From Crossaster papposus (Eukaryota; Echinodermata; Asteroidea; Velatida; Solasteridae): 64,000 bases of DNA. Numbering within the stretch: position 1 is the first letter of the stretch; each line of letters starts with the position of its first letter. The stretch is taken from the NCBI GenBank assembly GCA_037893245.1, contig JBAIAA010000877.1, positions 124,001-188,000 on the forward strand. Reading direction: 5' to 3'. Shown here one piece after another: positions 2,269 to 49,294 of the stretch. Made by a program: the position numbers and the translations under genes. The notes under the pieces are model-generated. The model was not told where the DNA came from, did no database searches, and saw nothing but the letters and a program-made list of their open reading frames with translations.

Positions 2269-2301
2269 TTTCTGTTGATAAAGGCGAAAACAAACTAACA
2301 T

Positions 2302-4060: not shown

Positions 4061-4730
4061 TGGCTGGACCCTAGCCCAGGTTGGACTCAGTCCTCCGTTG
4101 TGTACAACGCGACGGAGTCCAGGGTATCAATGTTTCCTGCCATAGCGAAAAATTTTACAACAACATTTTTTCATATTTGTACCTGATGAAGGAAGCCAAA
4201 ATCTCGCTTATGTATTCCTTGTGTCTGGAACTAAAGATCGTCATGGGTTATTAAAAGTTAATGTGTCTTTAGGCAACTTATTTACAGAAAATAAATTTCA
4301 AATCCACGCTTTTGGAAGTGAACATCATGTACGAACTCTCTACAATCCCTACATGCGTGCGATCGTGCGCGGGTACCCGGCAGCCGCGCCGGCCTACAAC
4401 TGATAAGCCAGGCGCGTGCACGGTACCCGCGCACGCATGTAGGGATTGTAGAGAGTTCGTACATGATGTTCACTTCCAAAAGCGTGGATTTGAAATTTAT
4501 TTTCTGTAAATAAGTTGCCTAAAGACACATTAACTTTTAATAACCCATGACGATCTTTAGTTCCAGACACAAGGAATACATAAGCGAGATTTTGGCTTCC
4601 TTCATCAGGTAAAAATATGAAAAAATGTTGTTGTAAAATTTTTCGCTATGGCAGGAGACATTGATACCTATACCCTGGACGTCAGTCTTATGAAGAACGT
4701 CGTCCAACCTGGGTTAGCTGGACCCCAGCC
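4061..4730. repeat. Long foldback (inverted repeat) of 670 bp
   Basis: Bases 4061-4378 reappear as their reverse complement at 4421-4730, with a GC-rich spacer of about 40 bp. The inner 240 bp of each arm is nearly perfect; the outer 60 bp is diverged. The same peptide, beginning MEVNIMYELSTIPTCVR, can be read from both strands, which is a simple proof of the palindrome. One arm carries a small extra GC-rich segment next to the spacer. No target-site duplication is obvious. It may be a foldback transposon or an inverted duplication; a transcript would form long dsRNA. Confidence 0.85.
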
Positions 4731-5501
4731 CTAAATCCGTCTATAAATTTATCGAAATTCTCTATTGTTTAACTCCTGTTATAGCGACATATAAAGTAAC
4801 ACTTATTCTATTAAAATATTATACAACACACAATCACACAAATTTAGATATTTCCATACAAATAATACAACAAAAAACTTATCAAAAAAATACAACTGCT
4901 GGCATAATCTTACCGTGTAGAGAATAGTCAGATACACCGTATTGATAGTAATGGTCGGCCCACCCAACGTTGAAGCTGCGGTACCGTACTGCCAGAAAGG
5001 TAGTCGTCATAGAGGGCGCCCTTTCTTTTTCACCACAGCAAATCTGTCTTACTAGTGTTATATTATCAAGCTTTGCGATAGAGGCAATGAGCCAAGTAAA
5101 TATTATTATTTCCTTATCTCATTCATTCATTCATTCATTCATCATACATTTATTTCCATATTGCTGGTTTACAAACATTTAAATTAGAAACTTAGTGAAA
5201 AATATGGAAAAAAAATAGTAAAAAATTGAGAAATTTTTGTTATGAAGCGTACAAGTCGTCAATAAATTGTATTAATCCAACAATTTATGTAAATTCCAGA
5301 GACAATAACAGCAAAGTTTCACCTATATATTTATACAAGTCTACATCTTTTTCTGCATTTTTATACTTTTGAATAAAACCGTTAATTTATCAGGAAATTA
5401 CCAGGAAATTAATTTTTTTATTAATTTTGGAATCCGTAGTCACCATTTTCCAATACGATTTGTCAACGATTTATTTAACCCCCTGCCTCAATGGTTTAGC
5501 C
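4731..5501. other. Non-coding, with ATTC microsatellite
   Basis: No gene seen. Contains an (ATTC)n tract at 5121-5142 and AT-rich sequence up to the first copy of the repeat array. Confidence 0.5.
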
Positions 5502-8500
5502 AATAGGCTTTGGCACTTTCGTTAATCCGATCGACTTGAGACTTAGCACACACCTCAACCACGATCCCCAGGAGGGCCAAGAGGAAAATCGTCATGATGA
5601 CGTCACTGTGGGTCCAGTGACGTCACGTAAAGGACGGTTCATACTCGGCGCGAAAGCAAACGCGAACTCGAATTTGTGACGTCAGGGCGAGTTTTCGCGA
5701 TGCGAAATCGCAAAAGTTGAACACATTTCAACTTGGGCGAATGTTCGCAGCGAATGCTTTGTGACGTTAAATTCGTTCGCATTCGCTTTCGCGTGAAGTA
5801 TGAACCGGCCTTAATGGTGCAGTTTTTAAGACCCTCTCTCTCCGGAAATATACACGTCCGATTGGGGTCAAACTTGGTATGCAAGTATATATTTTGGGAT
5901 ATGTTATAGACGAAAAATAAGATGACGTCATGCTGACGTCAACGGGTGTCATGTGACATCACATTAAATTTGCAGTGTTTGGGACCCTCTATCTCAGGAA
6001 GTACAGGCACGATTGTGGTCAAACTTGGTATGCAGTATTCCAGGATATGTTATAGAAATTAAGATGACATCATGATGACTTAATCGGATGTCATGTGACG
6101 TCATATTAAAGGTTAATTTTTCCGCGTAGGATCTGTACACGTTTTTTTTAAACTAAAATATCTGTAACAGTACTTTGATAAATCCGATCGACTTCAGACT
6201 TTGCACACACTTAGACCACCACCAACATATAAAGTAGAAAGTCATTTTAGACACCCAAAACAGCTCTGTGTTTGTCCACAAACACATTTCTAGTTTTCTT
6301 TTTTTTCTCCTTCAGACTCTTCTCCATAGAGTTTTTTGTTCGGACAATACACTTTGGCACTTTGATAAATCCGATCGACTTGAGACTTGGCATACACTTA
6401 GACCACCACCCACAGATGATCCTAGAAGAAATTCGTCACGATTACATCATTCATGGTCACGTGACGTCACGTTAAAGGGGCAATTTTTCCCCATAGGATT
6501 TGTACACGTTTTCCTTCAGACTATTGACTTTGACACTTTGTTAAATCCGATTGACTCGAGACTTAGTACACAGCTCAACCACCATCCTCAGGAGAGCCAA
6601 GAGGAAAATCGTCATGATGACGTCATCGGGGGTCATGTGACGTCACATTAAAGGTGCAGTTTTTAAGACCCTCTACCTCTGGAAGTACATGTCCGATTGG
6701 GGTCAAACTTGGTATTCAGGTATTCCATGATGAGTTATAGACGAAAATTAAGATGACATTATGATGACGTCATCGGGTGTCATGTGACGTCACATTAACG
6801 GTGCAGTTTTTAGGACCCTCTATCTCTGAAAGTACATGTCCGATTGGGGTCAAACTTGGTAGACGGGTATTCCGGGATGTGTTATAGACAAAAATTAAGT
6901 TGACGTAATGATGACGTCATCAGGTGTCATGCGACGTCACATTAAAGGTGTAGTTTTCCCCATAGGTTTTGTACATGTTTTCCTTCAGACTATTGACTTT
7001 GACACTGGTAAATTCACTCGACTCCAGACTTAGCATACACTTAGAACACCACCCACAGATGGTTCTGGAGGAAATTTGGCACGATTGCGTAATTCAAGGT
7101 CTCGTGACATGACGTTAAAGGTTCAATTTTCCCCCCATAGGTTTTGTACACGTTTTTCTTTAGACTATTGACTTTGACACTTTCGTAAATTTGATCGACT
7201 TGAGACCTAGCACACATTTCGACCACCATCCCCAGGAGGGCCAAGAGAAAACTTGTGATGGTGACGTCATCGTGGGTCATGTGACGTCACTTTAAAGGTT
7301 TAGTTTTTTTAATAGCATTTGTACACGTTTTTTTCAAGCAATATATTTGGCACTTTGGTAAATCCGACCGATTTCAGACTTGATACACACTAGACCACCA
7401 CCTACATATTGAAAGCCATTTTAGACATCCGAAACAGCTCTGTGTTTGTCCACAAACACATGTCTAGTTTTTTTTTTTTTTTGTCACTTTTTCCCCATAG
7501 GATTTGTACACGTTTTTTCTGCCAATACACTTTGACACTTTGGTAAATCCGATCGACTTGAGACTTGGCATACATTTAGACAACCACCCAAGGACGGTCC
7601 TACAACAAATTCGTCGCGATTACATAATTCTTGGTCACGTGACGTCACGTTAAAGGTGCAATTTTCCCCCATAGGTTTTGTACACGTTTTTCTTCAGACT
7701 ATTTAATTTGACAGTTTGGTGAATCCGATTGACTTGAAACTTAGCACACACCTCGACCACCATCCCCAGGAGGTCCAGGAGAAAAATCGTCATGATGACG
7801 TCATCGTGGGTCATGTGACGTTACACAAAAGGTGCAGTTTTTAAGACCCTCTATCTCTGGAAGTACACGTCCGATTGGGGTCAAATTTGGTTTGCAAGTA
7901 TTCGAGGATGTGTTATAGACGAAAATTAAGATGACGTAATTATGACATCATCGGGTGTCATGTGACGTCACATTAAAGGTTCAATTTTCTCCATAGGTTT
8001 TGTACACGTTTTTCTTCAAAATATTGAATTTGACACTTCTGTCAATTCGATCGACTTGAGACTTAGCACAGACCTCGACCACCATCCTTAGGAGGGTCAA
8101 GAACAAAATAATCAAGATGACGTCATCGGGGGTCATGTGACGTCACATTAAAGGTGTAGTTTTTAAGACCGTCTAACTCTGAAAGTACAAGTCCGGTTGG
8201 GGTCAAACTTGGCTTGCAAGTATTCGAGGATGTGTTATAGACAAAAAATAGGATGACGTAATTATGACATCATCGGGTGTCATGTGACGTCACATTAAAG
8301 GTTCTATTTTCTCCATAGGTTTTGTACACGTTTTTCTTCAGACTATTGAATTTGACAATTTGGTAAATCCGATCGACTTCGGACTTGGCACACACCTCGA
8401 CCACCATACCCAGGAGGGCCAAGGGGGAAATCGTCAGGATGACGTCATCGTGGGTCATATGAGGTCACATTAAAGGGGCAGATTTTAGGACCCTCTATCT

Positions 8501-11500
8501 CTGGAAGTACATGTCTGATTGGGGCCAAACTTGGTATGCAAGTATTCCAGAATGTGTAATAGACGAAAATTAAGATGACATCATGATGACATCATCGGGT
8601 GTCATGTGACGTCACTTTAAAGGTGCAGTTTTTCCCATAGGATTTGTACACGTATTTTTCAACTTATATATCTTGGGAAAATTGACAAATCCAATCGATT
8701 TCAGACTTGGCACACACATAATGAAAGTTATCTTAGACATCCGAAACAGCTCTGTGTTTGTCCACAAACACATGTCTAGTTTTTTTTTTTTCTCCTTCAG
8801 ACTTTCCCCATAGGGTTTGTACACGTTTTTTGTTCGGACAATACACTTTGACACTTTGATGAATCCGATCGACTTGAAACTAGGCATACACTTAGACCAC
8901 CACCCACAGATGATCCTAGAAGAAATTTGTCACGATTACGTCATTCGTGGTCACGTGACGTCACGTTAAAGGTGCAATTTTCCCCCATAGGATTTGTACA
9001 CGTTTTTCTTCAGAATGTTGAATTTGACACTTCGGTAAACCCGATCGACTTGAGACTTAAGACACACCTCGACCACCATCCCCAGAGGGGCCAGAAGAAA
9101 AATCGTCATGATGACGTCATCGTGGGTCATTTGACGTCACATTAAAGGTGGAGTTTATAAGACCCTCTATCTCTGGAAGTACAGGCCCGATTGGCGACAA
9201 ACTTGACATGCAAGTATCCCGGGATGTGTTATAGACGAAAATTAAGATGACGTCATGACGACGTCATCAGGGGCCATGTGACGTCACATTAAAGGTGTAG
9301 TTTTCCCTATAGGTTTTGTACACGTTTTTCGTCAGACTATTGAATTTGACACTTTGGTAAATCCAATCGACTCGAGACTTAGTACACACCTCGACCACCA
9401 TCTCTAGGAGGGCCACAAGGATAATCGTCATGATGACGTCATCGTGGGTCAGGTGACGTCACTTTAAAGGTGTAGTTTTTAAGACCCTCTATCTCTGGAA
9501 GTAAAGGTCTGATTGGGGTCAAACTTGGTATGCAGGTATTCCAGGATGTGTTATAGACGGAAATTAAGATGACGCCATGACGACGTCATCGTGGGCCATG
9601 TGACGTCACATTAAAGGTGCAGTTTTTCCCATAGGATTTGTACACGTTTTTTGCAACCAAGATATATTTGGCACTTTGGTAAATCCGATCGACTTCAGAT
9701 TTGGTACACACATAGACCACCACTCACATATTCAAAGTCATTTTAGACAAGCGAAACAGCTCTGTGTTTGTCCACAAACACATGTCTAGTTTTTTTTCTT
9801 CTTCTGTTTCAGACTATTCTCCATAGGATTTGTACACGTTTTTTGTTCAGCCAGTACACTTTGACACTTTGGTAGATCCGATCGACTTGAGACTTTGCAT
9901 ACTCTAAGACCACCACCCACAGATAGTCCTAGAAGAAATTCGTAACGATTACGTCTTTCATGGTCACGTGACGTCACGTTAAAGGTGCAATTTTTCCCCA
10001 TAGGTTTTGTACACGTTTTCCTTCAGACTATTGACTTTGACACTTTGGTAAATCCGATTGACTTTAGACTTAATATAAACCTCAACCACCATCCTCAGGA
10101 GGGCCAAGAGGAAAATCGTCATGATTACGTCATCGGGGGTCATGTGACGTCACGTTAAAGGTGCAGTTTTTAGGACCCTCTATCTCTGAAAGTACATGTC
10201 CGATTGGGGTCAAACTTGGTATACGGGTATTCCGGGATGTTTTATAGACGAAAATTAGGGTGACGTCATGATGACATTATCGTGGGTCATGTGACATCAC
10301 ATTAAAGGTGTAGTTTTTAAGACTCTATATCCCTGGAAGTACAAGTCCAATTAGGGTCAAACTTGGTATTCAGGTATTCCGGGATGTGTTATAGACGAAA
10401 ATTAAGTTAACGTCATGATGACGTCATCAGGTGTCATGTGACGTCACATTAAAGGTGTAGTTTTCCCCATAGGTTTTGTACACGTTTTCCTTCAGACTAT
10501 TGACTTTGATACTTTGGTAAATTCACTCGACTCCAGACTTAGCATACACTTAGAACACCACCCACAGATGGTTCTGGAGAAAATTAGGCACGATTGCGTA
10601 ATTCAAGGTCACGTGACAAGACGTTAAAGGTTCAATTTTCCCCCCATAGGTTTTGTACACGTTTTTTCTTTAGACTATTGACTTTGACACTTTCGTAAAT
10701 TTGATCGACTTGAGACCTAGCACACACTTCGACCACCATCCCCAGGAGGGCCAAGAGAAAACTCGTGATGATGACGTCATCGTGGGTCATGTGACGTCAC
10801 ATCAAAGGTTCATTTTTTTTTCATTTTTTTAATTTTTACACGTTTTTTTCAAGCAATATATTTGGCACTTTGGTAAACCCGATCGATTTCAGACTTGATA
10901 TACACTAGACCACCACCCACATATTGAAAGTCATTTTAGACATCCGAAACAGCTCTGTGTTTGTCCACAAACACATGTCTAGTTTTTTGTTTTTTTTCCT
11001 TTTTTTCCTCAGTTTCAGACTTTTCTCCATATAGTTTGTACACAGTTTTCTTCAGCCAATACACTTTGACACTTTGGTAAATCCGATCGACTTTAGACTT
11101 GGCATACATTTAAACAACCACCAAAGGACGGTCCTAGAAGAAATTCGTCGCGATTACGTCATTCATGATCACGTGACGTCACGTTAAAGGTGTAATTTTC
11201 CCCCATAGGTTTTGTACACGTTTTTCTTCAGACTATTGACTTTGACACTTTGTTCATTCCGATTGACTCAAAACTTAGTACACATCTCAACCACCTTCCT
11301 CAGGAGGGCCAAGAGGAAAATTGTCATGATGACGTCATCGGGGGTCATGTGACGTCACATTAAAGGTTCAGTTTTTAAGACCCTCTACCTCTGGAAGTAC
11401 ATGTCCGATTGGGGTCAAACTTAGTATTCAGGTATTCCAGGATGAGTTATAGACAAAAATTAAGATGATATCACGATGACGTCATCGGGTGTCACATGAC

Positions 11501-11817
11501 GTCACATCAAAGGTGTAGTTTTTAGGACCCTCTATCTCTGGAAGTACATGTCCGATTGGGGTCAAACTTGGTATGCACATATTCCATGATGTGTTATAGA
11601 CGAACATTAAGATGACGTCATGATGACATCATCGGGTGTCATGTGACGTCACATTAAATGAACAGTTTTTCCTATAGGATTTGTACACATTTTTTCAACC
11701 AATATATCTTTGGCACTTTAATACATCCGATCGACTTCACACTTGGCACACCCAAATATTGAAAGTCATTTTAGACATGCGAAACAGCTCTGTGTTTGTC
11801 CACAAACACATTTCTAG
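5502..11817 (+). mobile_element. Tandem array of family A Helentron-like elements (6 copies)
   Basis: Six head-to-tail copies of about 0.8-1.3 kb each end in the same 3' signature: GAAACAGCTCTG, the hairpin TGTGTTTGTCCACAAACACA, a short spacer, then CTAG followed by a T run. CTAG ends lie at 6290, 7464, 8776, 9786, 10979 and 11814. Inside each copy are diverged subrepeats of about 150-350 bp with phrases such as CCATAGGTTTTGTACACG and TCCGATCGACTTGAGACTT, separated by TGACGTCA palindromes. A 3' stem-loop followed by CTAG, insertion in T-rich sequence, a tandem-repeat core and a 5'/3' subterminal inverted repeat (visible in the copy at 48508-49294) are the marks of Helentron-associated rolling-circle elements (HINE/DINE-like). 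No protein is encoded. The first copy lacks its 5' end. The alternative is an ordinary satellite. Confidence 0.6.
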
Positions 11818-11950
11818 TTGGCTTTTTCGCAAATGCGAAAAAGCCTTTGTTTTTGTTCTGATTTTTTTGGCTTTTTCGCAAATTTTGCGAAAAAGCATTT
11901 GTTTTTGTTCTGATTTTTGGCTTTTTCGCAATTTTGCGAAAAAGCCTTTG
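11818..11950 (+). repeat. Triplicated 5'-end hairpin of family B
   Basis: GGCTTTTTCGC...GCGAAAAAGC(C) hairpins occur three times (about 11820, 11869, 11919), each followed by TTTGTTTTTGTTCTGATT, before a run of roughly 45 T. It looks as if three 5' ends were stacked or the 5' end was amplified with a period of about 50 bp. Confidence 0.75.
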
Positions 11951-11959
11951 TTTTTGTTC

Positions 11960-12008
<49 letters not shown>

Positions 12009-12442
12009 TAACCTAAACTCCATAGACTTTGTACACGTTTTTTTGCACAAGTACTTTTGCCAGAAAACAAAGTCATATTTCCATAAAACTTAACCCAAGT
12101 GAAGACCCCATAGTAAGCTCGTGCCTAGCAAACATACGTCATGGTGACGTCATCAGGGATCACGTGACGTCATCTTAAAGGTGCAATTGATTTAATCTTT
12201 GAAAATCAATAACAAATCAACCGCAAAAGACCTAAACTTGATTTTTGTGGCAATAGATAGAATAATTAAGGATCTTCATTTCATCTCATGTGCGTGAAAT
12301 CACGTGACCCTTCCTTCCGGTCCAAACCGGAAGTGCCTTATAATTTAAAACTGGAAAATGATATGAACTTAATTTCAACGATGTTAGTGTCTGGCTAGAA
12401 TAAACTTTTCAAAAAATTACCGGCGACGTCATAACACGTTAT

Positions 12443-15400
12443 AGCGCCCTCTAGCGGCAGGTTGAAAAATGGTTAAAATGCATAATTTGTTGGTGTGTGT
12501 GGCGAAGTTTGCTGAAATCACTTCATAACCGGTGTATATAATCAGCTTCGTGCTAAGAACATATTGAGAAAGAGATTTATTGATGACGTCACCAAACCGG
12601 AAGTTACAATGAAAAGACCTTAACACCTTAAAACGTCGCTTAGACTTTGTACACGTTTTTTTGCACAAGTACTTTTACCAGAAAACAAAGTCGTATTTTC
12701 ATAAAACTTAACCCAGGTGAAGACCCTATAGAAAAATCGTGTCTCGCAGACATACGTCATGGTGACGTCATCAGGGGTCACGTGACGTCATCTTAAAGGT
12801 GCAATTGCTTTAATCTTTGAAAATCAATAACAAATCAACCGCAAAAGGCCTAAACTTGATTTTTGTGGCAATAGATAGAATAATTAAAGATCTTCATTTC
12901 AACTCATGTGCGTGAAATCACGTGACCCTTCCTTCCGGTCCAAACCGGAAGTGCCTTATAATTTAAAACTGAAAAATGATATGAACTTACTTTCAACGAT
13001 GTTAGTGTCTGGCTAGAATAAACTTTTCAAAATAATTACCGGCGACATCATAACACGTTATAGCGCCCTCTAGCGGCAGGTTGACAAATGGTTAAAATGA
13101 ATAATCTGTTGATGTGTGTGGCGAAGTTTGCTGAAATTACTTTATAACCGGTGTATATATAATCAGCTTCGTGCTAAGAACATATTGAGAAAGAGATTTA
13201 TTGATGACGTCACCAAACCGGAAGTTACAATGAAAAGACCTTAAAACCTTTTCTGTTAATTACGTCACGATGACGTCATCAAGTGTCAGATTACAAGCAA
13301 CCAAATATTTCTAAATTTAATCTTTGAAAATCAATATAAAATCAACTGTAAGAGATCTGATTTAGATTTTTAGGAGAATTGATAGATTAATCCATGGTCT
13401 TCATAATTTGTATTACATGCAAAAAGACCTGACCCTTCCTTCCGGTCCAAACCAGAAGTGCATTATAATTTAAAAGTGGAAAACGATGTAAACTTATTTA
13501 AAACGATGTTAGGCGCTGGCTAGGTTATAAGTAAAAACAAAGTTAACGTTGACTTCATAAAATGTTATAGCGCCCTCTAGCGGCATGTTGACAAATGTTA
13601 CGTCATATTACGATTATATTTGAATTATTACGTTTTTCGACCTTTAAGTCATATCTCAGCAACGGAACGTGCTAACATAACATACGTTTGTATTGTTAGG
13701 TGATAGATAGTTGCACAAAAAGTTCAGAAACGTGTGACGTCATCGTTTTAATCAGTTTGAGTTTATTTTAATCTGTTTAAATTAACTTAAATTCGGTTTT
13801 TTTGAAAACAAATACTCTAAAAAAATGGGAATACGAAAAAGCCCTATGTTCTGTTCCTTGAACAGACGTAGTTCTAGTTTTTTTTTTTTTTTCTTTTTTT
13901 TTTAGTAACCTAAACCCCATAGACTTTGTACACGTTTTTTTGCACAAGTACTTTTACCAGAAAACAAAGTCGTATTTTCATAAAACTTAACCCAGGTGAA
14001 GACCCTATAGTGAGCTCGTGCCTAGCAGACATACGTCATGGTGACGTCATCAGGGGTCACGTGACGTCATCTTAAAGGTGCAATTAATTTAATCTTTGAA
14101 AATCAATAACAAATCAACCGCAAAAGACCGATACTTGATTTTTGTGGCAATAGATAGAATGACCCAGGATCTTAATTTTATCTCGTGTGCGTGAAGTCAC
14201 GTGACCCTTCCTTCCGGTCTAAACCGGAAGTGCCTTATAATTTAAAACTGAAAAATGATATGAACTTACTTTCAACGTTGTTAGTGTCTGGCTAGAATGT
14301 ATTTTTCAAAAAAAATACTGGTGACGTCATAACATGTTATAGCGCCCTCTAGCGGCAGGTTGAAATTTTTTAAAATGAATATTCGGTTGATGTGTGTGGC
14401 GAAGTTTGCAGAAATAACTTTATAACCGGTGTATATAATCAGCTTCATGCTAAGACCATATTGGGAAGGGGAAATATTTATGACGTCACCAAACCGGAAG
14501 TTACAATGAAAAATCCTTTAAACCTTTAAAAATCGCTTAAAAATCAACCGGGATAGATATAATCCAGATTTTTCCATCAAATAGCAAAGTTAAGACAGCT
14601 CTCGAGCTTTCTGTTAATTACGTCACGATGACGTCATCAAGTGTCAAATTACAATCAACCAAATATTTCTAGATATAATCTTTGAAAATCAATATAAAAT
14701 CAACTGTAAGAGATCTCATTTAGATTTTTAAGGGAATTGATAGACTAATCCATGGTCTTCATAATTTGTATTGGATGCAAAAAGACCCGACCCTTCCTTC
14801 TGGTCCAAACCGGAAGTGCCTTATAATTTAAAAATGGAAAACGATGTGAACTTACTTTCAACGATGTTAGGCGCTGGCTAGGTTGTAAGTAACAACAAAG
14901 TCAACGGTGACTTCATAAAATGTTATAGCGCCCTCTAGCGGCATGTTGACAAATGTTACATCATATTACGATTATATTTAAATTATTACGTTTTAAGACC
15001 TTTAAGCCATATCTCAGCAACGGAACGTGCTAACATAACACATATGTTTGTATTGTTAGGTGATGGATAGTTTCACAAATAGTTCACAAACGTGTGACGT
15101 CATCGTTTTAATCAGTTTGAATTCATTTTAATCTGTTTAAATTAACTTAAATTCGTTTTCAATAATTTTAAATTGTTTTGATGGTATAAAAGTTCAATTT
15201 TTGAAAAATTTAATCTAAAAAATTGCGTATGCGAAAAAGCCCTATGTTCTGTTCCTCGAACAGACGTAGTTCTAGTTGGCTTTTTCGCAATTTTGCGAAA
15301 AAGCCTTTGTTTTTGTTCTGATTTTTTTTTTTCTTTTTTTCTTTTTCTTTTAGTAACCTAAACTCCATAGACTTTGTGCACGTTTTTTTGCACAAGTACT

Positions 15401-18400
15401 TTTACCAGAAAACAAAGTCGTATTTCCATAAAACTTAACCCAGGTGAAGACCCTATACTGAACTCGTGTCTCCCAGAAATACGTCATGGTGACGTCATCA
15501 GGGGTCACGTGACGTCACCTTAAAGGTGTAATTGATTTAATCTTTGAAATTCAATAACAAATCAACCGCAAAAGACCGAAACTAAATTTTTGTGGCAATA
15601 GATAGAATAATCCAGGATCTTAATTTTATCTCGTGTGCGTGAAATCACGTGACCCTTCCTTCCGGTCTAAACCGGAAGTGCCTCATAATTTAAAAGTGAA
15701 AAATGATATGAACTTACTTTCAACGATGTTAGTGTCTGGCTACAATGTATTTTTCAAAAAAAGTATTGGTGACGTCATAACATGTTATAGCGCCCTCTAG
15801 CGGCTGTTTGAAAAATTGTTAAAATGAATAATCTGTTGATGTGTGTGGCGAAGTTTGCTGAAATCACTTTATAACCGGTGTATTTAATCAGCTTCATGCT
15901 AGGAACAAGTTGACGGGAAGAAAAAATTATGACGTCACCAGACCGGAAGTTAGAATGAAAAGACTCCTTTTCCTTTGAAAATTCCTAGAAAATTAAACCT
16001 GACAGATACAATCTTGATATTTGCTCTAAAGGTTAATGTAAAAGTAGTTCTCGAACTTCCCTGTGTTTTGGGGCAAAAAACGAACTTGAACATACCCTGC
16101 GGCACCCTTGAAATGTAATCGTTTTGGCCTAGGTGCAAAAAGCATTGACCCCTTACGCGTGCATGGCACACGTATAATATACATGCTAGTACATGTACGT
16201 ATACACTAATAGTGTATTATGTATTGAGCGAATGTATCACCACTGACATCGTTCGTGCAAGCACATGTACGCTCACCCAAGAGGACACTAGCCGCCAACC
16301 TGTGAAACAGGATGACGTCATCAAATTGCCCATGGGGAAGGGCGCCGCGTACGACAGGTAGGTAAACACGCTTTCGGCTACGCAGAATCCAACCCCGTAG
16401 ACTTTGTAAACGTTGCTTGCACAATTCAAAGCACTTTTAACGGAAAAACAAAGTCGTATTCCCATAAACTTGACCCAGGTGAAGACCCAATAGTGAACTG
16501 GTGTCTCGCAGACAGACGTCATGATGACGTCATCAGGAGTCACGTGACGTCATCTTAAAGGTTCAATTGATTTAATCTTTGAAAATCAATACAAAATCAA
16601 CCGCAAATGACCGAAACTTGATGTTTGTGGCAATAGATAGAATAATTCAGAATCTTCATTTTATCTCGTGTGCGTAAAATCACGTGACCCTCCCTTCCGG
16701 TCCAAACCGGAAGTGCCTCATAATTTGAAAGTGAAAAATGATATGAACTTACTTTCAACGATGTTAGTGTCTGGCTAGAATAAACTTTTCAAAAAAATTC
16801 CGGCGACGTCATAACATGTTAATAGCGCCCTCTAGCGGCAGGTTGAAAAATAGTTAAAATGAACAATCTGTTTATGTGTGTTGCGAAGTTTGCTGAAACC
16901 ACTTTATAACCGGTGTATATAATCAGCTTCATGCTTAGACCATTATTGGGAAGGAGAAATATTTATGACGTCACCAAACCGGAAGTTACAATGAAAAATC
17001 CTTTAAACCTTAAACAATCGCTTAAAAATCAACCGGGATAGATATAATCCAGATTTTTGCTTCAAATAGCAAAGTTAAGACAGCTCTCGAGCTTTATGTT
17101 AATTACGTCACGATGACGTCATCAAGTGTCAAATTACAATCAACCAAATATTTCTAGATATAATCTTTGAAAATCAATATAAAATCAACTGTAAGAGATC
17201 TGATTTAGATTTCTAAGGGAATTGATAGACTAATCTATGGTCTTCATAATTTGTATTACATGCAAAAAGACCCGACCCTTCCTTCCGGTCCAAACCGGAA
17301 GTGCCTTATAATTTAAAAATGGAAAACGATGTGAACTTACTTTCAACGATGTTAGGCGCTGGCTAGGTTGTAAGTAACAAGAAAGTTAACAGTGACTTCA
17401 TAAAATGTTATAGCGCCCTCTAGCGGCGTGTTGACAAATGTTACATCATATTACGATTATATTTAAATTATTACGTTTTAAGACCTTTAAGCCATATCTC
17501 AGCAACGAAACGTGCTAACATAACAACTTTTTTTATTGTTAGGTGATAGATAGTTGCACAAAAAGTTCACAAACGTGTGACGTCATCATTTTAATCAGTT
17601 TGAATTAATTTTAATCTGTTTAAATTAACTTAAATTCGTTTCCAATGATTTTAAATTGTTTTGATGGTATAAAAGTTCAATTTTTGAAATATTTAATCTA
17701 AAAAATTGAGAATGCGAAAAAGCCCTATGTTCTGTTCCTCGAACAGACGTAGTTCTAGTTTCTTCTTTTTTTTCTTTTAGTAACCTAAACTCCATAGACT
17801 TTGTACACGTTTTTTTGCACAAGTACTTTTACCAGAGAACAAAGTCGTATTTCCATAAAACTTAACCCAAGTGAAGACCCTATAGTAAGCTCGTGCCTAG
17901 CCGACATACGACATGGTGACGTCACCAGGGGTCACGTGACGTCATCTTAAAGGTGCAATTGATTTAATCTTTGAAAATCAATAACAAATCAACCGCAAAA
18001 GACCGAAACTTGATTTTTATGGCAACAGATAGAATAATCCAGGATCTTCATTTTATCTCATGTGCGTAAAATCACGTGACCCTTCCTTCCGGTCTAAACC
18101 GGAAGTGCCTTATAATTTAAAAGTGAAAAATGATATGAACTTACTTTCAACGCTGTTAGTGTCTGGCTAGTTTGTATTTAACAACAAAAATACCGGCGAC
18201 GCCATAACATGTTATAGCGCCCTCTAGCGGCAAGTTGAAAAATTGTTAAAATGAATAATCTGTTGATGTGTGTGGCGAAATTTGCGGAAATCACTTTATA
18301 ACCGGTGTATTTAATCAGCTTCATGCTAGGAACAAGTCGACGAGAAGAAAAATTATGACGTCACCAGACCGGAAGTTACAATGAAAAGACTTCTTTTCCT

Positions 18401-21400
18401 TTGAAAATTCCTAAAAAATTAAACCTGACAGATATAATCTTGATTTTTGTTCAAAAGGTTAGTGTAAAAGTAGTTCTCGAACTTTCCTTTTTTTTTTGGC
18501 AAAAAACGAACTTGGACATACCCTGCGGCACCCTTTAAATTTAATCGTTTTGGCCTAGGCGCATAAAGCATTGACCCCTTATATGTGGGTGTACATGCTT
18601 GTATGTACGTACGTATACACTGATAGTGTACTATGCATTGAGCGAATGTATCACTACTGACATCGTACGTGCATGCAAATGTACGCTCACCCAAGAGGAC
18701 ACTAGCCGCCAACAAGCGAAACAGGATGACGTCATCAAATTGTCTATGGGGAAGGGCGCCGTGTGCGACAGGTAGGTAAACAGGCTCTCGGCTACGCAGA
18801 ATCCAATCCCATAGACTTTGTAAACGTTGTTTGCACAATTCCAAGCACTTTTAACGAAAAACAAAGTCGTATTTCCATAAAACTTAACCCAGGTGAAGAC
18901 CCTATAGAAAACTCGTGTTTCGCAGACATACGCCATGGTTACGTTGTCAGGGGTCACGTGACGTCATCTTAAAGGTGCAATTGATTTAATCTTTAAAAAT
19001 AAATAACAAATCAACCACAAAAGACCGAAACTTGATTTTTGTGGCAATAGATAGAATAATCCAGAATCTTCATTTTATCTCGTGTGCTAAAATCACGTGA
19101 CCCTTCCTTCCGGTCCAACCGGAAGTGTCTCATAATTTGAAAGTGAAAAATGATATGAACTTACTTTCAACGATGTTAGTTTCTGGCTAGAATAAACTTT
19201 TCCAAAAAAAATCAGGCGACGTCATAATATATTATAGCGCCCTCTAGCGGCAGGTTGAAAAATGGTTAAAATGAATAATCTGTTGATGTGTGTGGCGAAG
19301 TTTGCTGAAACCACTTTATAACCGGTGTATATAATCAGCTTCATGCTTAGACCATATTGGGAAGGAGAAATATTTATGACGTCACCAAACCGGAAGTTAC
19401 AATGAAAAATCCTTTAAACCTTAAACAATCGCTTAAAAATCACCCGCTATAGATATAATCCAGATTTTTGCATCAGATAGCACAGTAAAGACAGCTCTCG
19501 AGCTTTCTGTTAATTACGTCACGATGACGTCATCAAATGTCAGATTACAAGCAACCAAATATTTCTAGATTTAATCTTTGAAAATCAATATAAAATCAAC
19601 TGTAAGATATCTGATTTAGATTTTTAAGGGAATTGATAGATTAATCCATGGTCTTCATAATTTGTATTACATGCAAAAAAACCTGACCCTTCCTTCCGGT
19701 CCAAACCGGAAGTGCATTATAATTTAAAAGTGGAAAACGATGTGAACTTACTTTCAACGATGTTAGGCGCTGGCTAGGTTGTAAGTAACAAACAAGTTAA
19801 CGGTGACTTCTTAAAATGTTATAGCGCCCTCTAGCGGCATGTTGACACATGTTACGTCATATTACGATTATATTCGAATTATTACGTTTTTCGACCTTTA
19901 AGTCATATCTCAGCAACGGAACGTGCTAACATAACAAATTTTTTTATTGTTAGGTGATAGATAGTTGCACAAAAAGTTCACAAACGTGTGACGTCATCGT
20001 TTTAATCAGTTTGAATTAATTTTAATCTGTTTAAATTAACCTAAATTCGTTTCCAATGATTTTAAATTGTTTTGATGGTATAAAAGTTCAATTTTTGAAA
20101 TATTTAATCAAAAAAATTGAGAATGCGAAAAAGCCCTATGTTCTGTTCCTCGAACAGACGTAGTTCTAGTTTTTCTTTTTCTTTCTTCTTCTTTTTTCTT
20201 TCTTTTAGTAACCTAAACCCCATAGACTTTGTACACGTTTTTTTGCACAAGTACTTTTAATAGAAAACAAAGTCGTATTTCCATAAAACTTAACCCAATT
20301 GAAGACCCTATAGTAAGCTCGTGCCTAGCCGACATACGTCATGATGACGTCATCAGGGGGTCACATGACGTCATCTTAAAGGTTCAATTGATTTAATCTT
20401 TAAAAATAAATAACAAATCAACCACAAAAGACCGAAACTTGATTTTTGTGGCAATAGATAGAATAATCCAGAATCTTCATTTTATCTCGTGTGCGTAAAA
20501 TCACGTGACTCTTCCTTCCGGTCCAAACCGGAAGTGCCTCATAATTTGAAAGTGAAAAATTATATGAACTTACTTTCAACGATGTTAGTGTCTGGTTAGA
20601 ATAAACTTTTCCAAAAAAAATCAGGCGACGTCATAATATGTTATAGCGCCCTCTAGCGGCAGGTTGAAAAATGGTTAAAATGAATAATCTGTTGATGTGT
20701 GTGGCGAATTTTGCTGAAACCACTTTATAACCGGTGTATATAATTAGCTTCATGCTTAGACCATTTATTGGGAAGGAGAAATATTTATGACGTCACCAAA
20801 CCGGAAGTTACAATAAAAAATCCTTTAAACCTTAAACAATCGCTTAAAAATCAACCGCTATAGATATAATCCAGATTTTTGCATCAGATAGCAAAGTAAA
20901 GACAGCTCTCGAGCTTTCTGTTAATTACGTCACGATGACGTCATCAAATGTCAGATTACAAGCAACAAAATATTTCTAGATTTAATCTTTGAAAATCAAT
21001 ATAAAATCAACGGTAAGAGATCTGATTTAGATTTTTAGGGGAATTGATAGATTAATCCATGGTCTTCATAATTTGTATTACATGCAAAAAGACCTGACCC
21101 TTCCTTCCGGTCTAAACTGGAAGTGCATTATAATTTAAAAGTGGAAAACGATGTGAACTTACTTTCAACGATGTTAGGCGCCGGCTAGGTTGTAAGTAAC
21201 AAACAAGTTAACAGTGACTTCATAAAATGTTAAAGCGCCCTCTAGCGTCATGTTGACAAATGTTACGTCATATTACGATTATATTTGAATTATTACGTTT
21301 TTAGACGTTGAAGGCATATCTCAGCAACGGATCGTGTTAACATAACACCTCATTTTGTGTTGTTAGGTGATAGATAGTTGCACAACAAGTTCACAAACGT

Positions 21401-23680
21401 GTGACGTCATCGTTTTAATCAGTTTTAATTCATTTTACTCTGTTTAAATTAACTTAAATTAGTTTTCAATGATTTTAAATTGTTTTGATGGTTTAAAAGT
21501 TCAATTTTTGAAATATTTAATAAAAAAAAATTGTGAATGCGAAAAAGCCCTATGTTCTGTTCCTTGAACAGACGTAGTTCTAGTTTTCTTTTTTTTTTCT
21601 TCTTCTTTTTTTTTCTTTTAGTAACCTAAACTCCATAGACTTTGTACACGTTTTTTTGCACAAGTACTTTTACCAGAGAACAAAGTCGTATTTCCATAAA
21701 ACTTAACCCAAGTGAAGACCCTATAGTAAGCTCGTGCCTAGCCGACATACGACATGGTGACGTCATCAGGGGTCACGTGACGTCATCTTAAAGGTGTAAT
21801 TGATTTAATCTTTGAAAATCAATAACAAATCAACCGCAAAAGACCGAAACTTGATTTTTGTGGCAACAGATAGAATAATCCAGGATCTTCATTTTATCTC
21901 ATGTGCGTAAAATCACGTGACCCTTCCTTCCGGTCTAAACCGGAAGTGCCTTATAATTTAAAAGTGAAAAATGATATGAACTTACTTTCAACGCTGTTAG
22001 TGTCTGGCTAGTTTGTATTTAACAACAAAAATACCGGCGACGCCATAACATGTTATAGCGCCCTCTAGCGGCAAGTTGAAAAATGGTTAAAATGAATAAT
22101 CTGTTGATGTGTGTGGCGAAATTTGCGGAAATCACTTTATAACCGGTGTATTTAATCAGCTTCATGCTAGGAACAAGTCGACGAGAAGAAAAATTATGAC
22201 GTCACCAGACCGGAAGTTACAATGAAAAGACTTCTTTTCCTTTGAAAATTCCTAAAAAATTAAACCTGACAGATATAATCTTGATTTTTGTTCAAAAGGT
22301 TAGTGTAAAAGTAGTTCTCGAACTTTCCTTTTTTTTTTGGCAAAAAACGAACTTGGACATACCCTGCGGCACCCTTTAAATTTAATCGTTTTGGCCTAGG
22401 CGCATAAAGCATTGACCCCTTATATGTGGGTGTACATGCTTGTATGTACGTACGTATACACTGATAGTGTACTATGCATTGAGCGAATGTATCACTACTG
22501 ACATCGTACGTGCATGCAAATGTACGCTCACCCAAGAGGACACTAGCCGCCAACAAGCGAAACAGGATGACGTCATCAAATTGCCTATGGGGAAGGGCGC
22601 CGTGTGCGACAGGTAGGTAAACAGGCTCTCGGCTACGCAGAATCCAATCCCATAGACTTTGTAAACGTTGTTTGCACAATTCCAAGCACTTTTAACGAAA
22701 AACAAAGTCGTATTTCCATAAAACTTAACCCAGGTGAAGACCCTATAGTAAACTCGTGTTTCGCAGACATACGTCATGGTTACGTCGTCAGGGGTCACGT
22801 GACGTCATCTTAATGGTGCAATTGATTTAATCTTTAAAAATAAATAACAAATCAACCACAAAAGACCGAAACTTGATTTTTGTGGCAATAGATAGAATAA
22901 TCCAGAATCTTCATTTTATCTCGTGTGCTAAAATCACGTGACCCTTCCTTCCGGTCCAACCGGAAGTGCCTCATAATTTGAAAGTGAAAAATGATATGAA
23001 CTTACTTTCAACGATGTTAGTTTCTGGCTAGAATAAACTTTTCCAAAAAAAAATCAGGCGACGTCATAATATGTTATAGCGCCCTCTAGCGGCAGGTTGA
23101 AAAATGGTTAAAATGAATAATCTGTTGATGTGTGTGGCGAAGTTTGCTGAAACCACTTTATAACCGGTGTATATAATCAGCTTCATGCTTAGACCATATT
23201 GGGAAGGAGAAATATTTATGACGTCACCAAACCGGAAGTTACAATGAAAAATCCTTTAAACCTTAAACAATCGCTTAAAAATCACCCGCTATAGATATAA
23301 TCCAGATTTTTGCATCAGATAGCACAGTAAAGACAGCTCTCGAGCTTTCTGTTAATTACGTCACGATGACGTCATCAAATGTCAGATTACAAGCAACCAA
23401 ATATTTCTAGATTTAATCTTTGAAAATCAATATAAAATCAACTGTAAGATATCTGATTTAGATTTTTAGGGGAATTGATAGATTAATCCATGGTCTTCAT
23501 AATTTGTATTACATGCAAAAAACCCTGACCCTTCCTTCCGGTCCAAACCGGAAGTGCATTATAATTTAAAAGTGGAAAACGATGTGAACTTACTTTCAAC
23601 GATGTTAGGCGCTGGCTAGGTTGTAAGTAACAAACAAGTTAACGGCGACTTCTTAAAATGTTATAGCGCCCTCTAGCGGC
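12443..23680. promoter_or_regulatory. Series of about 16 CTCF-like motifs
   Basis: The 16-mer AGCGCCCTCTAGCGGC occurs at 12443, 13062, 13569, 14341, 14937, 15789, 16824, 17412, 18216, 19236, 19823, 20645, 22057, 23078 and 23665, with one altered copy at 21234. Its reverse complement, GCCGCTAGAGGGCGCT, fits the known CTCF core consensus (CCRCYAGRGGGCGC). All copies point the same way, 0.5-1 kb apart. Binding is inferred from the motif only. Confidence 0.4.
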
Positions 23681-24011
23681 ATGTTGACAAATGTTACGTC
23701 ATATTACGATTATATTCGAATTATTACGTTTTTCGACCTTTAAGTCATATCTCAGCAACGGAACGTGCTAACATAACATACGTTTGTATTGTTAGGTGAT
23801 AGATAGTTGCACAAAAAGTTCACAAACATGTGACGTCATCGTTTTAATCAGTTTGGATTCATTTTAATCTGTTTAAATTAACTTAAATTCGTTTTCGATG
23901 ATTTTAAATTATTTTGATGGTATAAAAGTTCAATTTTTGCAAAATTTAATCTAAAAAATTGCGAAAGCGAAAAAGCCCTATGTTCTGTTCCTCGAACAGA
24001 CGTAGTTCTAG
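17759..24011 (+). repeat. Recent large duplication inside the family B array
   Basis: The copy ending at 20169 and the copy ending at 24011 are almost identical over about 2.2 kb at an offset of 3841 bp. For example, a 141-codon open frame at 18419-18844 (minus) is repeated without amino-acid change at 22260-22685. Other copies in the array are clearly more diverged, so this pair arose recently, probably by unequal exchange of a two-copy unit. Confidence 0.8.
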
Positions 24012-25082
24012 TTTTTTGTGTGTTTTTGTCCACTTTCAGACTTTTTCTCATAGGATTTGTACACGTTTCGTTCAGCCAATACACTTTGACACTTTGGTAA
24101 ATCCGATCGACTTGAGACTTGGCATACACTAAGAACACCAACCACAGATGGTCCTAGAAGAAATTCGTCTCGATTGCGTCATTCATGGTCACGTGACGTC
24201 ACGTTAAAGGTGCAATGTTTCCCCATAGGTTTTGTACACGTTTTCATCCAGACTATTGATTTTGACACTTTAGTTAATCCGATTGACCTAAATGTTAGCA
24301 CACACCTCAACCACCATCCTCAGAAGGGCCAATATGAAAATCGCCATGATGACGTCATCGGGGGTCATGTGACGTCACATTAAAGGTTCAGTTTTTAGGA
24401 CCCTCTATCTCTGGAAGTACAAGTCCGATTAGTGTCAAACTTGGTATACAGGTATTCCGGGATGTGTTATATACGAAAATTAAGGTGACGTCATAATGAC
24501 GTCATAATGACGTCATGTGACGTCACATTAAAGGTGTAGTTTTCCCCATAAGATTTGTACACGTTTTTTCACCCGATATATATTTGGCACTTTGGTAAAT
24601 CCGGATCGACTTCAGACTTGGCTAGCTACTCTTAGCATACTACCCACAGATGATTCTAGAAGAAATTCGTCACGATTACGTTATTCATGGTCAAGTGACG
24701 TCACGTTAAAGGTTCAATTTTTCCCCATAGGTTTTGTACACGTTTTCCTCAAGACTATTGACTTTAACACTTTAGTAAATCCGATTGACCTAAAAGTTAG
24801 CACACACCTCAACCACCATCCTCAGAAGGGCCAATGTGAAAATCGGCATGATGACGTCATCGGGGGGTCATGTGACGTCATATTAAAGGTTCGGTTTTTA
24901 GGACCCTCTTTCTCTGGAAGTACAAGTCCGATTAGTGTCAAACTTGGTATACAGGTATTCCGGGATGTGTTATATACGAAAATTAAGGTGACGTCATAAT
25001 GACTTCATAATGACGTCATGTGACGTCACATTACAGGTGTAGTTTTCCCCATAAGATTTGTATACGTTTTTTCACCCGATAT
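24012..25082 (+). mobile_element. Family A Helentron-like copy, 5' part (split by retrotransposon)
   Basis: Starts right after the CTAG of the last family B copy and returns to the family A module order, with a cluster of four TGACGTCA-type sites at 24485-24530. Two modules (24180-24560 and 24680-25060) are close duplicates. The copy is broken at 25082 by the retrotransposon; its missing part continues at 28936. Confidence 0.6.
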
Positions 25083-28000
25083 AATAATAATAATAATAAA
25101 TGTTTCTTATATAGCGCATTTCAAAACCGGAGGAATTCTCAATGCGCTTTACATGACAAAGGCTTATAATTTACATTTTACATTTAAACTTATATATCTA
25201 CATACTACAAATAACATAATTTTGCTGAGTACAAATCAAAGTGCATCTTAAATTACAAAATAGGTCAATAGGTAACATAACAAAAATGTAGCTGCAATCT
25301 CAACAACCAACTAAAGTATAAGTATAACAATGGCACGTTATACATGTACCATTCATACTTACAAATATGCCTCTTTGAATAGGTAGGTTTTAAGCTGTTT
25401 TTTAAAGCTATTGGGGTTGGATTGGGAGCGAATTTCGTACGGTAGCAAGTTCCAGAAAGTTGGGCCGATAAAAGAAAATGAGCGTTCACCGTATTTTTTT
25501 GTTTTTTGTGGGGGTACACGAAGGAACTGCTGGTTTGATGATCGGAGGGATCTTGCTGGGGTGTAGACAGACAAAAGATCAGAGAGATAGCTCGGTGCGA
25601 GACCATGGATAGCATTGAAGACAAGTAGGATAATTTTGAAACGGATACGAAATTTAATTGGAAGCCAGTGAAGTTCTTTTAGAATTGGTGTGGTGTGTTC
25701 TTTTCGGGGGGATTTAGAAACAAGTCTCGCTGCTGAATTTTGTATTCTTTGCAGTTTTGTTACTTGTTTTTCCGGAAGGCCTACCAAAAGGCTATTACAA
25801 TTATCGAGTAGAGACGAGACAAAAGCATGTACAAGAACTTCAGTGCTGGACTTATTAAGGTATGGACGAATACTGCCAATTTTCCTTAGTGCTAGGGAGG
25901 CATTCCGGCAGACCTTATTAACGTGAGGTTGCATATTCAAATGTTTGTCTAGAACAACACCAAGATCTCGCACCGACTTAGAAGGGGGGACCTGATTATT
26001 TCCTGATGTAATTGGGGGGAATTCCTGACATTGTCTGAATCTTGAAGATAGGTGAAGAACTTCCATCTTGTTGTCGTTGAGAACCAGATAGTTGCTCGCC
26101 ATCCAGTCTCGAACTTCTCGGAGACAGCATTTTAGCCGCTCGATCACAAATTCCCTGTTTGAGTTTATAGAGACGTACAATTGTGTGTCATCAGCATACA
26201 ACATGGTTGAGAAACCATGTGCGCTGATTATGTATTGGATTGGAGAAGTGTAAGCTATGAAGAGAACCGGCCCTATAACTGAGCCTTGAGGGACACCCCA
26301 TTGTAGTAACGAAGGCTCTGATGAAGCTCCTGCGACGATGACCACTTGCTCTCTCTCTGACAGGTATGATGCAATCCACCGTAGTGCTACCGTTCCTTTA
26401 ATCGTGAGAGTAGCAAATGGTGTTCTATGGTGTCGAATGCAGCCGTCAGGTCTAATAAGATTAGCACAGCTTCATTCCCGCTATCAAGTGTTATGAGGAG
26501 GTCGTTGTAAACCCTCACAAGAGCAGTCTCGACACCATGGTGCTGCCTGTAGGCTGACTGTCTGGATGGCAAGAGTTGGTTTTCAGAGAAGTATGCCATC
26601 AACTGCTGACAAACTATACGCTCGATTACTTTTGCGAGAAATGGTAGATTGGAAATTGGACGGAAGTTCTTCAGGTTATCTGGGTCAAGACTAGGCTTTT
26701 TTAGCGTAGGTGTTACCAATGCCGACTTCAATGAAGCAGGAAAAATGCCCAGCTCAAGAGACTGATTCGCTATGTCGGTGATGGCAGGAAGAAGGGTGTC
26801 AATGCATTTACTGAAGACATGAGCAGGAATGGGGTCTGACAAACAGGATTTGATTGTCTTTGACCTAATGATGGAGCGCACCTCACCATTGGGAATGGGC
26901 CGAAACTTCTGCAGACTGCACGTCGTACTTCCGTCTGTTGTGTCACTTGGTGATTCGTAGTCAGTGTTGGCGTTAATTTCTCGTAGTCGGAAGACCTTGT
27001 CGTGAAAAAAGTTTGAGAATCGTTCTGCAAGCTCTTTCTCAGAGTCATAAGAGGGAAGGCGTTGGTCACTTCGTTCAACCGTCATCCTTTCGACAATCTG
27101 GAATAGTTCCTTGGTGTTGCAATTGGAAATCTTTTCTCTGTGATGTGCTCCTTTAGCTTGTTTCAGCTTAGATCGGTATTCAGAGAGAGATTCTTTCATG
27201 ATTTCCTCATCTATTGTTGTCTTTGTCTTTCTCCACTTTCGCTCTTTTGAACGCATATTCTGTTTTTGGTTTCTTATGGCATCGTCATACCATGGTGCAT
27301 GTGGACGCAACTGGACATCTTTTTGCATCACTGGTGCATGTTTATCTAGTGTGGCAGCAAGAGTATTGTTGTACGTATCAACTTTCTGCGAGACATCCAT
27401 ATCTGGGAGGTTGTCGTATTCAGCAAAAGAGCTTTCAAATCCAGCATTGAATTCCCCATAGTCGATGTTCTGGAGCTTGCGGAAGGTGACTTGCTTTCTG
27501 GTCGTAGACGGACGTGCCAATGCTGCCGTAAACGTAATAGCGGCATGGTCTGATGGCATTGCATGATGGACACTCACATTATCGACGAAGTCCGTACCAT
27601 CGCGTACAATCAGCAGGTCAAGGATGTGTCCACGTAAGTGCGTTTGCTCGGAGATCAGCTGCTTCAGACCTCCAGAGTCAAGGAGGTCCGAGATTGTTCT
27701 TGCATCAGTGTCTGATGGATTGTCTACATGGATGTTGAAGTCGCCACAAATGAGCAGCTTGCTTTGCAGTAAGCTAACAGATTCGAGGAGGGTGGATAAT
27801 TCAGCAAAGAAGTGTGTCATACCCTGGCCTCTGGCAGGTGGTCTGTAGATGCCAATCAAGGATAACGTGTCTTGATTGGGAGTACCAGCTGTTACCTCGA
27901 GGCATTCAAAAGTTTCGTGTGTACGAGTTCTTTTCTTGGTGGTGAAACCGCTGCGTAGAATAATGCAAATTCCGCCTCCTTTCTTTCCTTTGCGAGGAAG

Positions 28001-28935
28001 TTGCAACAGACGGTAGTCTTGTAGAGTGTTTTGAATATCAGCTAAGACGGGACCGTCGCGACAATCTCCTCTGAGCCACGCTTCTGTGATCACCAGAATA
28101 TCAAGGTTCTCAGTCAAGATAAAGTCACAGATTTCAGTGGGCTTATTCATCATTGACTGCGCATTCCAAAGACCAACGCGTGTGGGATTGACATTGGGAC
28201 CACTGGCTGCAGGAACAAGCCGTATGAGTTTCAGGATAGAGGGATGAGTAATGCGCCTCTTTCTCATCTCTGTCGGGATCTCTTTCCTCACATGTGTGAT
28301 GACTGGGATGGGCCTCTGCTGCTTTTCCCAAGATCTTCGGCCTCTCCGGGTCGGTCCTGTGGAGCAAATTCCCAGGTTCCTCACCCTCTGATATCAGTCT
28401 GGAGGAAGCCGGTAGCCACCGGCCGGTGCAATACTTCTCAGAAGGTCCTCATTGCTATATTGCTGCAGTGACAGTACATCACATAAGATTGCCATTGCTA
28501 GTAGCAACATAAAAGGGGAAGTTAAGTTGGGGTTCCCCATGGCAATTATCTGCATTCAGTCAGAGCCATTCAGCTTGCTCACAGTGCATGTCGTGGTGAA
28601 TAGGGCACTAGCTGCACACAATAGAAGTTCAGTTCACTCCACAATGGGAAGTCAGTCAACCATACGCATATGTACATGTAGTATAAACATGGAGGATCAT
28701 AGCTCTGTACATATACTCAGTACATATACTCAGCATGTAGATTTTCACTGGCTAATATCCAATGAACTAAGTGATCAAATGTTCCTAAAATTGTCTAGTA
28801 GCATCCTGATACATTCACAAAACTACTGGTCACAAACTGTTCACAACTTTCAAAGAAATAGCAGGCTAAATGTATGTAAAAGTACAGAGCAATTATTATT
28901 GAGTGCAACCTAAGGCGCCACATCACTTACATTTG
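25083..28935 (-). mobile_element. L2/CR1-type non-LTR retrotransposon, nearly full length
   Basis: The element lies on the minus strand with its 5' end near 28935 and a 3' end of about 275 bp of UTR closing in a (TTA)n tail at 25083-25100. It is inserted into a family A repeat at GATAT: the uninterrupted relative reads CACCCGATATATATTTGGC at about 24575, while here CACCCGATAT stands on the left and GATATATATTTGGC on the right, giving a short GATAT duplication. There is no separate ORF1. The 3' microsatellite tail, a single EN-RT frame and the C-terminal block typical of L2 proteins (HGLAPSYLSDLL, FWNLLP, FKKQLKTYLF) point to the L2/CR1 group. Confidence 0.88.
25359..28384 (-). pseudogene. Endonuclease-reverse transcriptase of the L2-type element, frameshifted
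   Basis: The first part (28384-26387, 665 codons) has an APE-type endonuclease: LWNAQSM near the start of the domain, TEAWL with the catalytic Glu, GIYRPP, GDFN, LDLLI and the SDH motif. It continues into the reverse transcriptase fingers (FRPISNLP, LDLTAAFDTIEHH). The frame then stops at 26387. The rest of the RT follows in another frame from 26345 to 25359 (328 codons): WGVPQGSVIGPVLF, the catalytic YADD, and the thumb and C-terminal L2 block. One small indel between about 26380 and 26400 explains the break; no other lesion was found, so the copy is young. EN nicks the target and RT copies the element RNA there. The first codon at 28384 is not ATG, so the true start is unsure. Confidence 0.85.
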
Positions 28936-29824
28936 GATATATATTTGGCACTTTGGTAAATCCGATCGACTTCAGACTTGGCTAGCTACTCTTAGCATAC
29001 TACCCACAGATGATCCTATAAGAAATTCGTCACGATTATGTCATTCGTGGTCACGTGACATCACGTTAAAGGTGCAGTTTTTTCCCCATAGGTTTTGTAC
29101 ACGTTTTTCTTCAGACTATTGACTTTGACACTTTGGTAAATCCGATCGACTTCCGACTTAGCACACACTTGATCACCATCCCCAGGAGGGCCAAGATAAA
29201 AATCGTCACGATGACGTCATCGTGGGTCATGTGACGTCACATTAAAGGTTCAGTTTTTTGGACCCTCTATCTCTGGAAGTACAGGTCCGATTGTGCTCAA
29301 ACTTGATTTACAGGTATTCCGGGATATGCTATAGATATAAATGGAGGTGATGGCATAATGACGTCATCGGGTGTAATGTGGCGTCACCTTAAAGGTGTAG
29401 TTGTTAAGACCCTCTATCTCTAGAAGTACAGGTCCGATTGGAGTCAAACTTGGTATGCAAGTATTCCGGGATGTGTTATAGGTATACATTGAGCTGACGT
29501 AATGATAACGACATCGGGTGTCATGTGACGTCACATTAAAGGTGAGTTTTCAAGACCATCTATCTCTGAAAGTACAAGTCCGATTCAGGTCAAACTTGGT
29601 ACGCAATTATTTCGGGATGTGTTATAGGTATTAATTGGGGTCACGTCATGATTATGTTATCGGGTGTAATGATATGTCACATTAAATGTGTATTTGTTAT
29701 AGTTTTAGATGAATGTTTTCGTCATTTTTGTCACATTTGTTATTAATGAAAGTATGTTGTGATGGTGTCATAGAATCATTTAACACTGCCGAAACAGCTA
29801 GTGTTTGTCCACAAACACATCTAG
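28936..29824 (+). mobile_element. Family A Helentron-like copy, 3' part
   Basis: Picks up exactly where the copy at 24012-25082 was interrupted (ATATTTGGCACTTTGGTAAATC) and ends with GAAACAGCTAG, the hairpin TGTTTGTCCACAAACA and CTAG at 29821-29824, followed by TTTG and unique sequence. Subrepeats here are more diverged than in the main array. Confidence 0.6.
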
Positions 29825-48507: not shown

Positions 48508-49294
48508 CTAGACATGTGTTTGTGGACAAACACAGAGCTGTTTCGAGTGTCTAAAATTACTTTCAATATGTGTGTGGTGGTCTTTTGTGTGTGCCAAGTC
48601 TCAAGTCGATCAGATTTACTAAAGTGTCAAAGGCAATAGTCTAAAGAAAAACGTGTACAAAACCTATGGGAAAAAAATAGAAACTTTGACGTGACGCCCC
48701 GTGACCTTGAATGCCGTAATCGTGCCGAAGTTCTTCTAGGGCCGTCTGTGGATGGTGGTCTAAGTGTGTGCCAAGTCTCAAGTCGATCGGATTTACTAAA
48801 GTGTCAAAGTCAATAGTCTAAAGAAAAACGTGTACAAAACCAATGGGAGAAAAATGTGAACCTTTAATGTGACGTCACGTGACCTTGAATGATGCAATCG
48901 TGCCGAATTTCTTTCAGAAACATCTGGGGGTGGTGTTCTAAGTGTATGCGAAGTTTCAAGTCGGTCGGATGTACCCAAGTGCAAAAGTCAATAGTCTGAA
49001 GAAAAACGTGTACAAAACCTATGGGGAAAATTAAACCTTTAACGTGACGTCACGTGACCTTGAATGACACAATCGAGCCAAATTTCTTCTAGGACCATCT
49101 GTGGGTGAAGGTCTAAGTGTATACCAAGTCTCAAGTAGATTGAAATCACCAAAGTGCCAAAGTGTATTGGCAGAACAAACGTGTGTAAATCCTATGGGTA
49201 AAAACACTGAAAGTGGAAAAAAAAAAAAAAGGAAAAAGAAAAAAAAAAACTTTAACGAAAACAAAAGCTGTTTCGGTGAAAAACCGAAACAGCT
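48508..49294 (-). mobile_element. Isolated family A Helentron-like element
   Basis: This single complete copy, in reverse orientation and flanked by unrelated sequence, fixes both ends of the family. On the minus strand it opens at 49294 with AGCTGTTTCGG, a short loop and CCGAAACAGCT, then TTTTGTTTTCG and a T-rich tract. It has about three modules with GTGACGTCAC sites and closes with GAAACAGCT, the TGTGTTTG hairpin and CTAG at 48508-48511, followed by TTAC. The 5' AGCTGTTTC is the reverse complement of the 3' GAAACAGCT, i.e. a subterminal inverted repeat. Confidence 0.65.

Follow-up and report, generated by a model that had tools for sequence, protein, structure and literature searches.

Tandem Helitron arrays are usually ascribed to read-through, and the canonical Helitron 3' end is CTRR. 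Among the closest described systems, HINE/DINE-1 elements have palindromic inverted repeats near both ends, a 3' stem-loop and central tandem repeats, and use a T-rich insertion site with no duplication seen, according to the available part of the report on them (PMC4067079). In the accessible text on Cg_HINE of Crassostrea gigas (PMC7492417), HINE modules contain satellite-like tandem repeats, the target is oligo-T and there is no duplication. For the Helitron2-type FoHeli elements of Fusarium, the portion of the paper at hand (PMC5148889) describes multiple 5' termini, for which self-insertion was proposed, and a transposase that is reversed in some groups. These features recur, with no duplication visible at the flanks read, in the elements described here, which we found in a window of 64,000 nucleotides (C877:124001-188000) of the 1.02-Gb Crossaster papposus assembly. 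All coordinates without a prefix that concern this array are those of the window.

Results

The window contains elements of two families, A and B, with one plan in different letters. As read from a solitary A copy, both ends of which are visible with T's at either side (Table 1), and from other loci, this plan consists of a hairpin, a short spacer, a T tract, a body of tandem repeats, an inverted copy of the hairpin's left arm, a stem-loop and CTAG. Inverted repeats lie near both ends, the 5' one being palindromic (AGCTGTTTCG/CGAAACAGCT, 10 bp, in A; GGCTTTTTCGC/GCGAAAAAGCC, 11 bp, in B), and the elements start after the T's with AGCTG or GGCTT. The 5' hairpins of both families have 12-pair stems, and none of 200 shuffles was equally stable. 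The 3' stem-loops before CTAG are weaker, their stability being matched by 2 of 200 shuffles in one case and 7 of 200 in the other (energy z-scores of -2.87 and -2.24). The exact 27-base B end has 1676 matches in the genome (916+760) and the exact A hairpin 9196, with 0 matches for the reversed-pattern control in both cases; by hand count, 34 of the first 50 listed A hairpin sites (of 9196) are at most 110 bp from another. A sequence-only reading of this DNA had proposed a Helentron-like identity, which is backed by the layout, the ends and the linked Rep family, and had named target-site duplications as evidence against it. No duplication is visible at the four flank pairs read (the solitary copy of the window, L009, C15 and C22), all with T's on both sides, and here the uninterrupted outer copy is known by analogy only (L009 compared with C13). 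In part, the evidence establishes the two families as HINEs (non-autonomous Helentrons) with insertion between T's.

A search with PF14214 (Helitron_like_N), the one Rep/helicase domain profile used, scored 150 of 273 candidates; the matches number at least 150, and many of them lie in open frames of more than 3,000 codons. Twelve longer copies share the A tail, defined as an identity of 92% or more across the initial 132 bases of the query, among the matches listed; A tails at 91% and less (C877:539306, C687, C258 and others) fall outside this set, and some of its contigs may duplicate one another. PF14214 lies upstream on the opposite strand in 11 of the 12, among the matches listed, at a distance of 8,129-10,492 bases in nine and of about 24 and 26 kb in two; for the remaining copy, C317, there is no upstream PF14214 among these matches. 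From this tail sharing and linkage, a Rep-bearing element with the A tail is likely to be the source of machinery for the HINEs. The first member of the window array, A1, probably represents the 3' portion of a Helentron that is autonomous, and a Rep match lies 3.7 kb left of the window (G000:C877:119730-120320, - strand). Its left limit at 3322 was set by locus length and is no true boundary, and it is interrupted at 4078-4716 and at about 5634-5811 by segments missing from other copies. The second of these segments has inverted ends and resembles a small inverted-repeat transposon.

The array has 13 in-register 3' ends (7 of family A, 6 of family B) on the + strand between 6293 and 29824, every one consisting of a stem-loop, CTAG and T. 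The sequence-only reading had described 12 or 13 consecutive copies ending in this way, and all 13 ends were confirmed at the places claimed. Its array start at 5502 had to be given up: no element end lies there, and similarity to other genomic copies reaches upstream to at least 3322. Of the 5' hairpins that it assigned to both families, that of B was found in the array at four sites (11820, 11869, 11919 and 15278 only). That of A was not seen there; it occurs at other loci, and the solitary copy (48508-49294) carries it. Since B hairpins are confined to these sites, four of the six B bodies start directly in the T run after the previous CTAG. Identities between A bodies of the array are mostly in the eighties, with a single pair at 90.8%, and those between B pairs are mostly 88-94%, with a single pair at 98.6%. 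This pair comprises the first and third bodies of 17759..24011 (B4 and B6), which, judged by their sequence, arose by later local duplication. The last A copy is split at about 25092-28930 by a LINE-like insertion with reverse transcriptase and endonuclease matches.

Table 1. Positions of family A and family B features in the window
Feature	Position	Strand	Remarks
Family A 3' ends	6293, 7467, 8779, 9789, 10982, 11817, 29824	+	
Family B 3' ends	13877, 15275, 17758, 20169, 21583, 24011	+	
A1, tail of a longer element	3322..6293	+	extent from similarity to genomic copies
Five family A bodies	6294..11817	+	3' ends 7467, 8779, 9789, 10982, 11817; all lacking a 5' hairpin in this array
Three stacked family B 5' hairpins	11820..11946	+	
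Family B body 1	11947..13877	+	
Family B body 2	13878..15275	+	without hairpin
Family B copy 3	15278..17758	+	own hairpin 15278-15305
Three family B bodies	17759..24011	+	without hairpins; ends 20169, 21583, 24011
Family A body, outermost copy	24012..29824	+	without hairpin; followed by unrelated flank
Solitary complete family A copy	48508..49294	-	hairpin to CTAG; flanks ...ACATAATT and TTACATTT...

A tandem array of 17-bp units (30071-30288) lies directly beyond the transposon array. Elsewhere the window encodes a TRIM-like RING/B-box protein (37205-38620, - strand) followed by an NHL-repeat frame (35876-36640, - strand), and a collagen plus C1q-domain protein (52954-53826); arrays of 53-bp units in both orientations are present at 57509-60172.

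Joints between elements were counted by a script over 16 stretches, chosen for holding many copies and built from 22 of 56 loci and the window. In these chosen stretches, a bare body came next after 56 of the 97 parsed 3' ends, a hairpin after 37 and other sequence after 4, and the 96 parsed hairpins were followed by another hairpin (49) or a body (47). Without the repeated unit C3b, the counts were 49 for 3' end to bare body, 31 for 3' end to hairpin, 4 for 3' end to other sequence, 39 for hairpin to hairpin and 39 for hairpin to body. The hairpins form 47 stacks with one (20 stacks), two (12), three (10), four (3) or five (2) hairpins, so that 27 of the 47 contain 2-5. Loci L039 and L040 show a higher-order repeat of about 4.3-4.6 kb composed of A and B parts. 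At L055, a GCGAGGGGGGACTTGTC-rich satellite occupies about 600-8500 within a family A body, and no further 3' ends were found there because the satellite fills the locus.

Nesting can be followed at C13 and C15, where one and the same B copy sits inside different outer copies. The inner copies agree at 1463 of 1469 aligned bases (99.6%), and the outer parts are 95.1% identical. The solitary L009 has a C13-type outer start with an uninterrupted T tract (5' region compared by eye). C15 is a complete nest with 2 hairpins, 2 3' ends and unrelated flanks, and two overlapping loci span all of it.

Entry of newcomers on the body side of an older hairpin would pair the last hairpin of a stack with the body that comes first. 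In this mirror order, the mean hairpin similarity of 13 A bodies was 0.949, compared with 0.922 in shuffles, and was reached by 42 of 5000 shuffles; the A bodies of the window stand outside this subtype test because its array holds no A hairpins. The clearest run is the second five-hairpin stack of C17, where the following bodies match the subtypes in mirror order with one exception (by eye). C17 also has a mixed stack A-A-A-B, followed by a B body and then by an A body of the third A hairpin's subtype. Family order fits 28 of 33 testable bare bodies, a figure that is weakly informative because most arrays are single-family. Where the expected family differs from that of the preceding body, there are two fits (C17 and C641) and two misfit events, namely C18, counted once, and C3b, which as a repeat unit was counted three times; the fifth mismatch, at C13, is a script labelling fault. 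L006 was kept in the order tests despite its overlap with the C18 stretch and was excluded from the joint and relative counts. Overall, the mirror-order test gave a modest positive result, with exceptions.

Nearest relatives were sought for 60 of the 81 bodies, the queries coming from stretches other than C3b that hold at least 3 bodies. The closest sampled relative was in another array for 37 of the 60 bodies, in the same array for 23 (random expectation 10.9) and in an adjacent position for 8 (random expectation 2.8). Local duplication is real and contributes to the arrays, and the pattern indicates both recurrent insertion and some local duplication.

Discussion

The arrays probably grew mainly by self-insertion, with newcomers entering the T tract that separates an older copy's 5' hairpin from its body. 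A newcomer, moving as a single strand or a circle as known Helitron biology suggests, would enter the T tract just inside the older hairpin. Each event would leave the old hairpin in front, place the new hairpin behind it and displace the old body by a whole new copy, so that hairpins would pile up with their bodies in mirror order. Later local duplication and the movement of multi-hairpin composites may then have altered the counts. In the complete array C22, 10 hairpins stand against 11 3' ends, and in C17 (18767-35008) 18 against 13; these unequal counts call for duplication, loss or composite movement. Repeated insertion, one of two origins considered in the sequence-only reading, is supported, but its target is mostly the inner T tract of the older copy rather than the T-rich 3' end; insertion into the T's after CTAG is compatible with some joints (the 37 of 97 3' ends followed by a hairpin).

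Amplification of a few original copies and hairpins, through slippage or unequal exchange between T tracts, would account for the near-identity of B4 and B6, for C3b with its repeated unit of about 4.3-4.6 kb and for the excess of same-array and adjacent nearest relatives over random expectation. We consider it unlikely, as 37 of 60 bodies have their closest copy in another array even though the sample covers little of the genome's complement of copies, neighbouring bodies are many percent apart, and neither the mixed A/B stacks nor the inner copy common to C13 and C15 would be expected. Joint types and nearest relatives place slippage alone, as well as read-through alone, below nesting. Composite transposition, in which a unit already carrying several hairpins moves and inserts as one, was proposed for FoHeli in the available part of PMC5148889 and fits the surplus of hairpins over 3' ends at C17. 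It appears quite improbable here, since the two counts are equal in C15 and nearly equal in C22, and by itself it leaves the bare bodies unexplained. Rolling-circle read-through, in which the 3' terminator is ignored and head-to-tail multimers are inserted, the other origin offered in the sequence-only reading, is highly improbable: it matches the hairpins directly after 37 of 97 3' ends, yet it predicts a hairpin before every body, where we find bare bodies after 56 of 97 3' ends and 49 hairpin-hairpin joints, and it does not account for the A bodies without a hairpin that follow a B copy (window 24011, C17 20378 and C641 17661).

It is conceivable, if on balance doubtful, that the machinery targets its own 5' region. 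A Helentron Rep sitting on the 5' hairpin of a resident copy would then steer newcomers, whichever family they belong to, into the T tract beside it, which would make self-nesting the rule and the arrays time-ordered stacks, legible like brackets. If many arrays arise by ordered self-insertion, they would record relative insertion times, the seeding of satellite-like DNA by HINEs would be explained and Helentron target choice would become testable.

A search of literature titles, with subscription papers mostly beyond its reach, found none that deals with hairpin stacks across a genome or with a bracket-like order. Like canonical Helitrons, the elements described here have a 3' hairpin followed by CTAG; canonical Helitrons insert between A and T and have a 5' TC, whereas the flanks here are T and T, which sets these elements outside the canonical class. 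Compared with HINE/DINE-1 (PMC4067079, available part), the inverted repeats are 10-11 bp instead of the 12-15 bp of mite HINEs, the 3' end is CTAG, and long arrays with stacked 5' hairpins do not feature in that text. Cg_HINE forms dispersed short arrays, with no hairpin stacks in the accessible description (PMC7492417). For FoHeli, the portion of the paper at hand (PMC5148889) describes few cases and no order test, whereas here two families inter-nest in many copies. Within the literature searched, the scale and the cross-family order of nesting look new.
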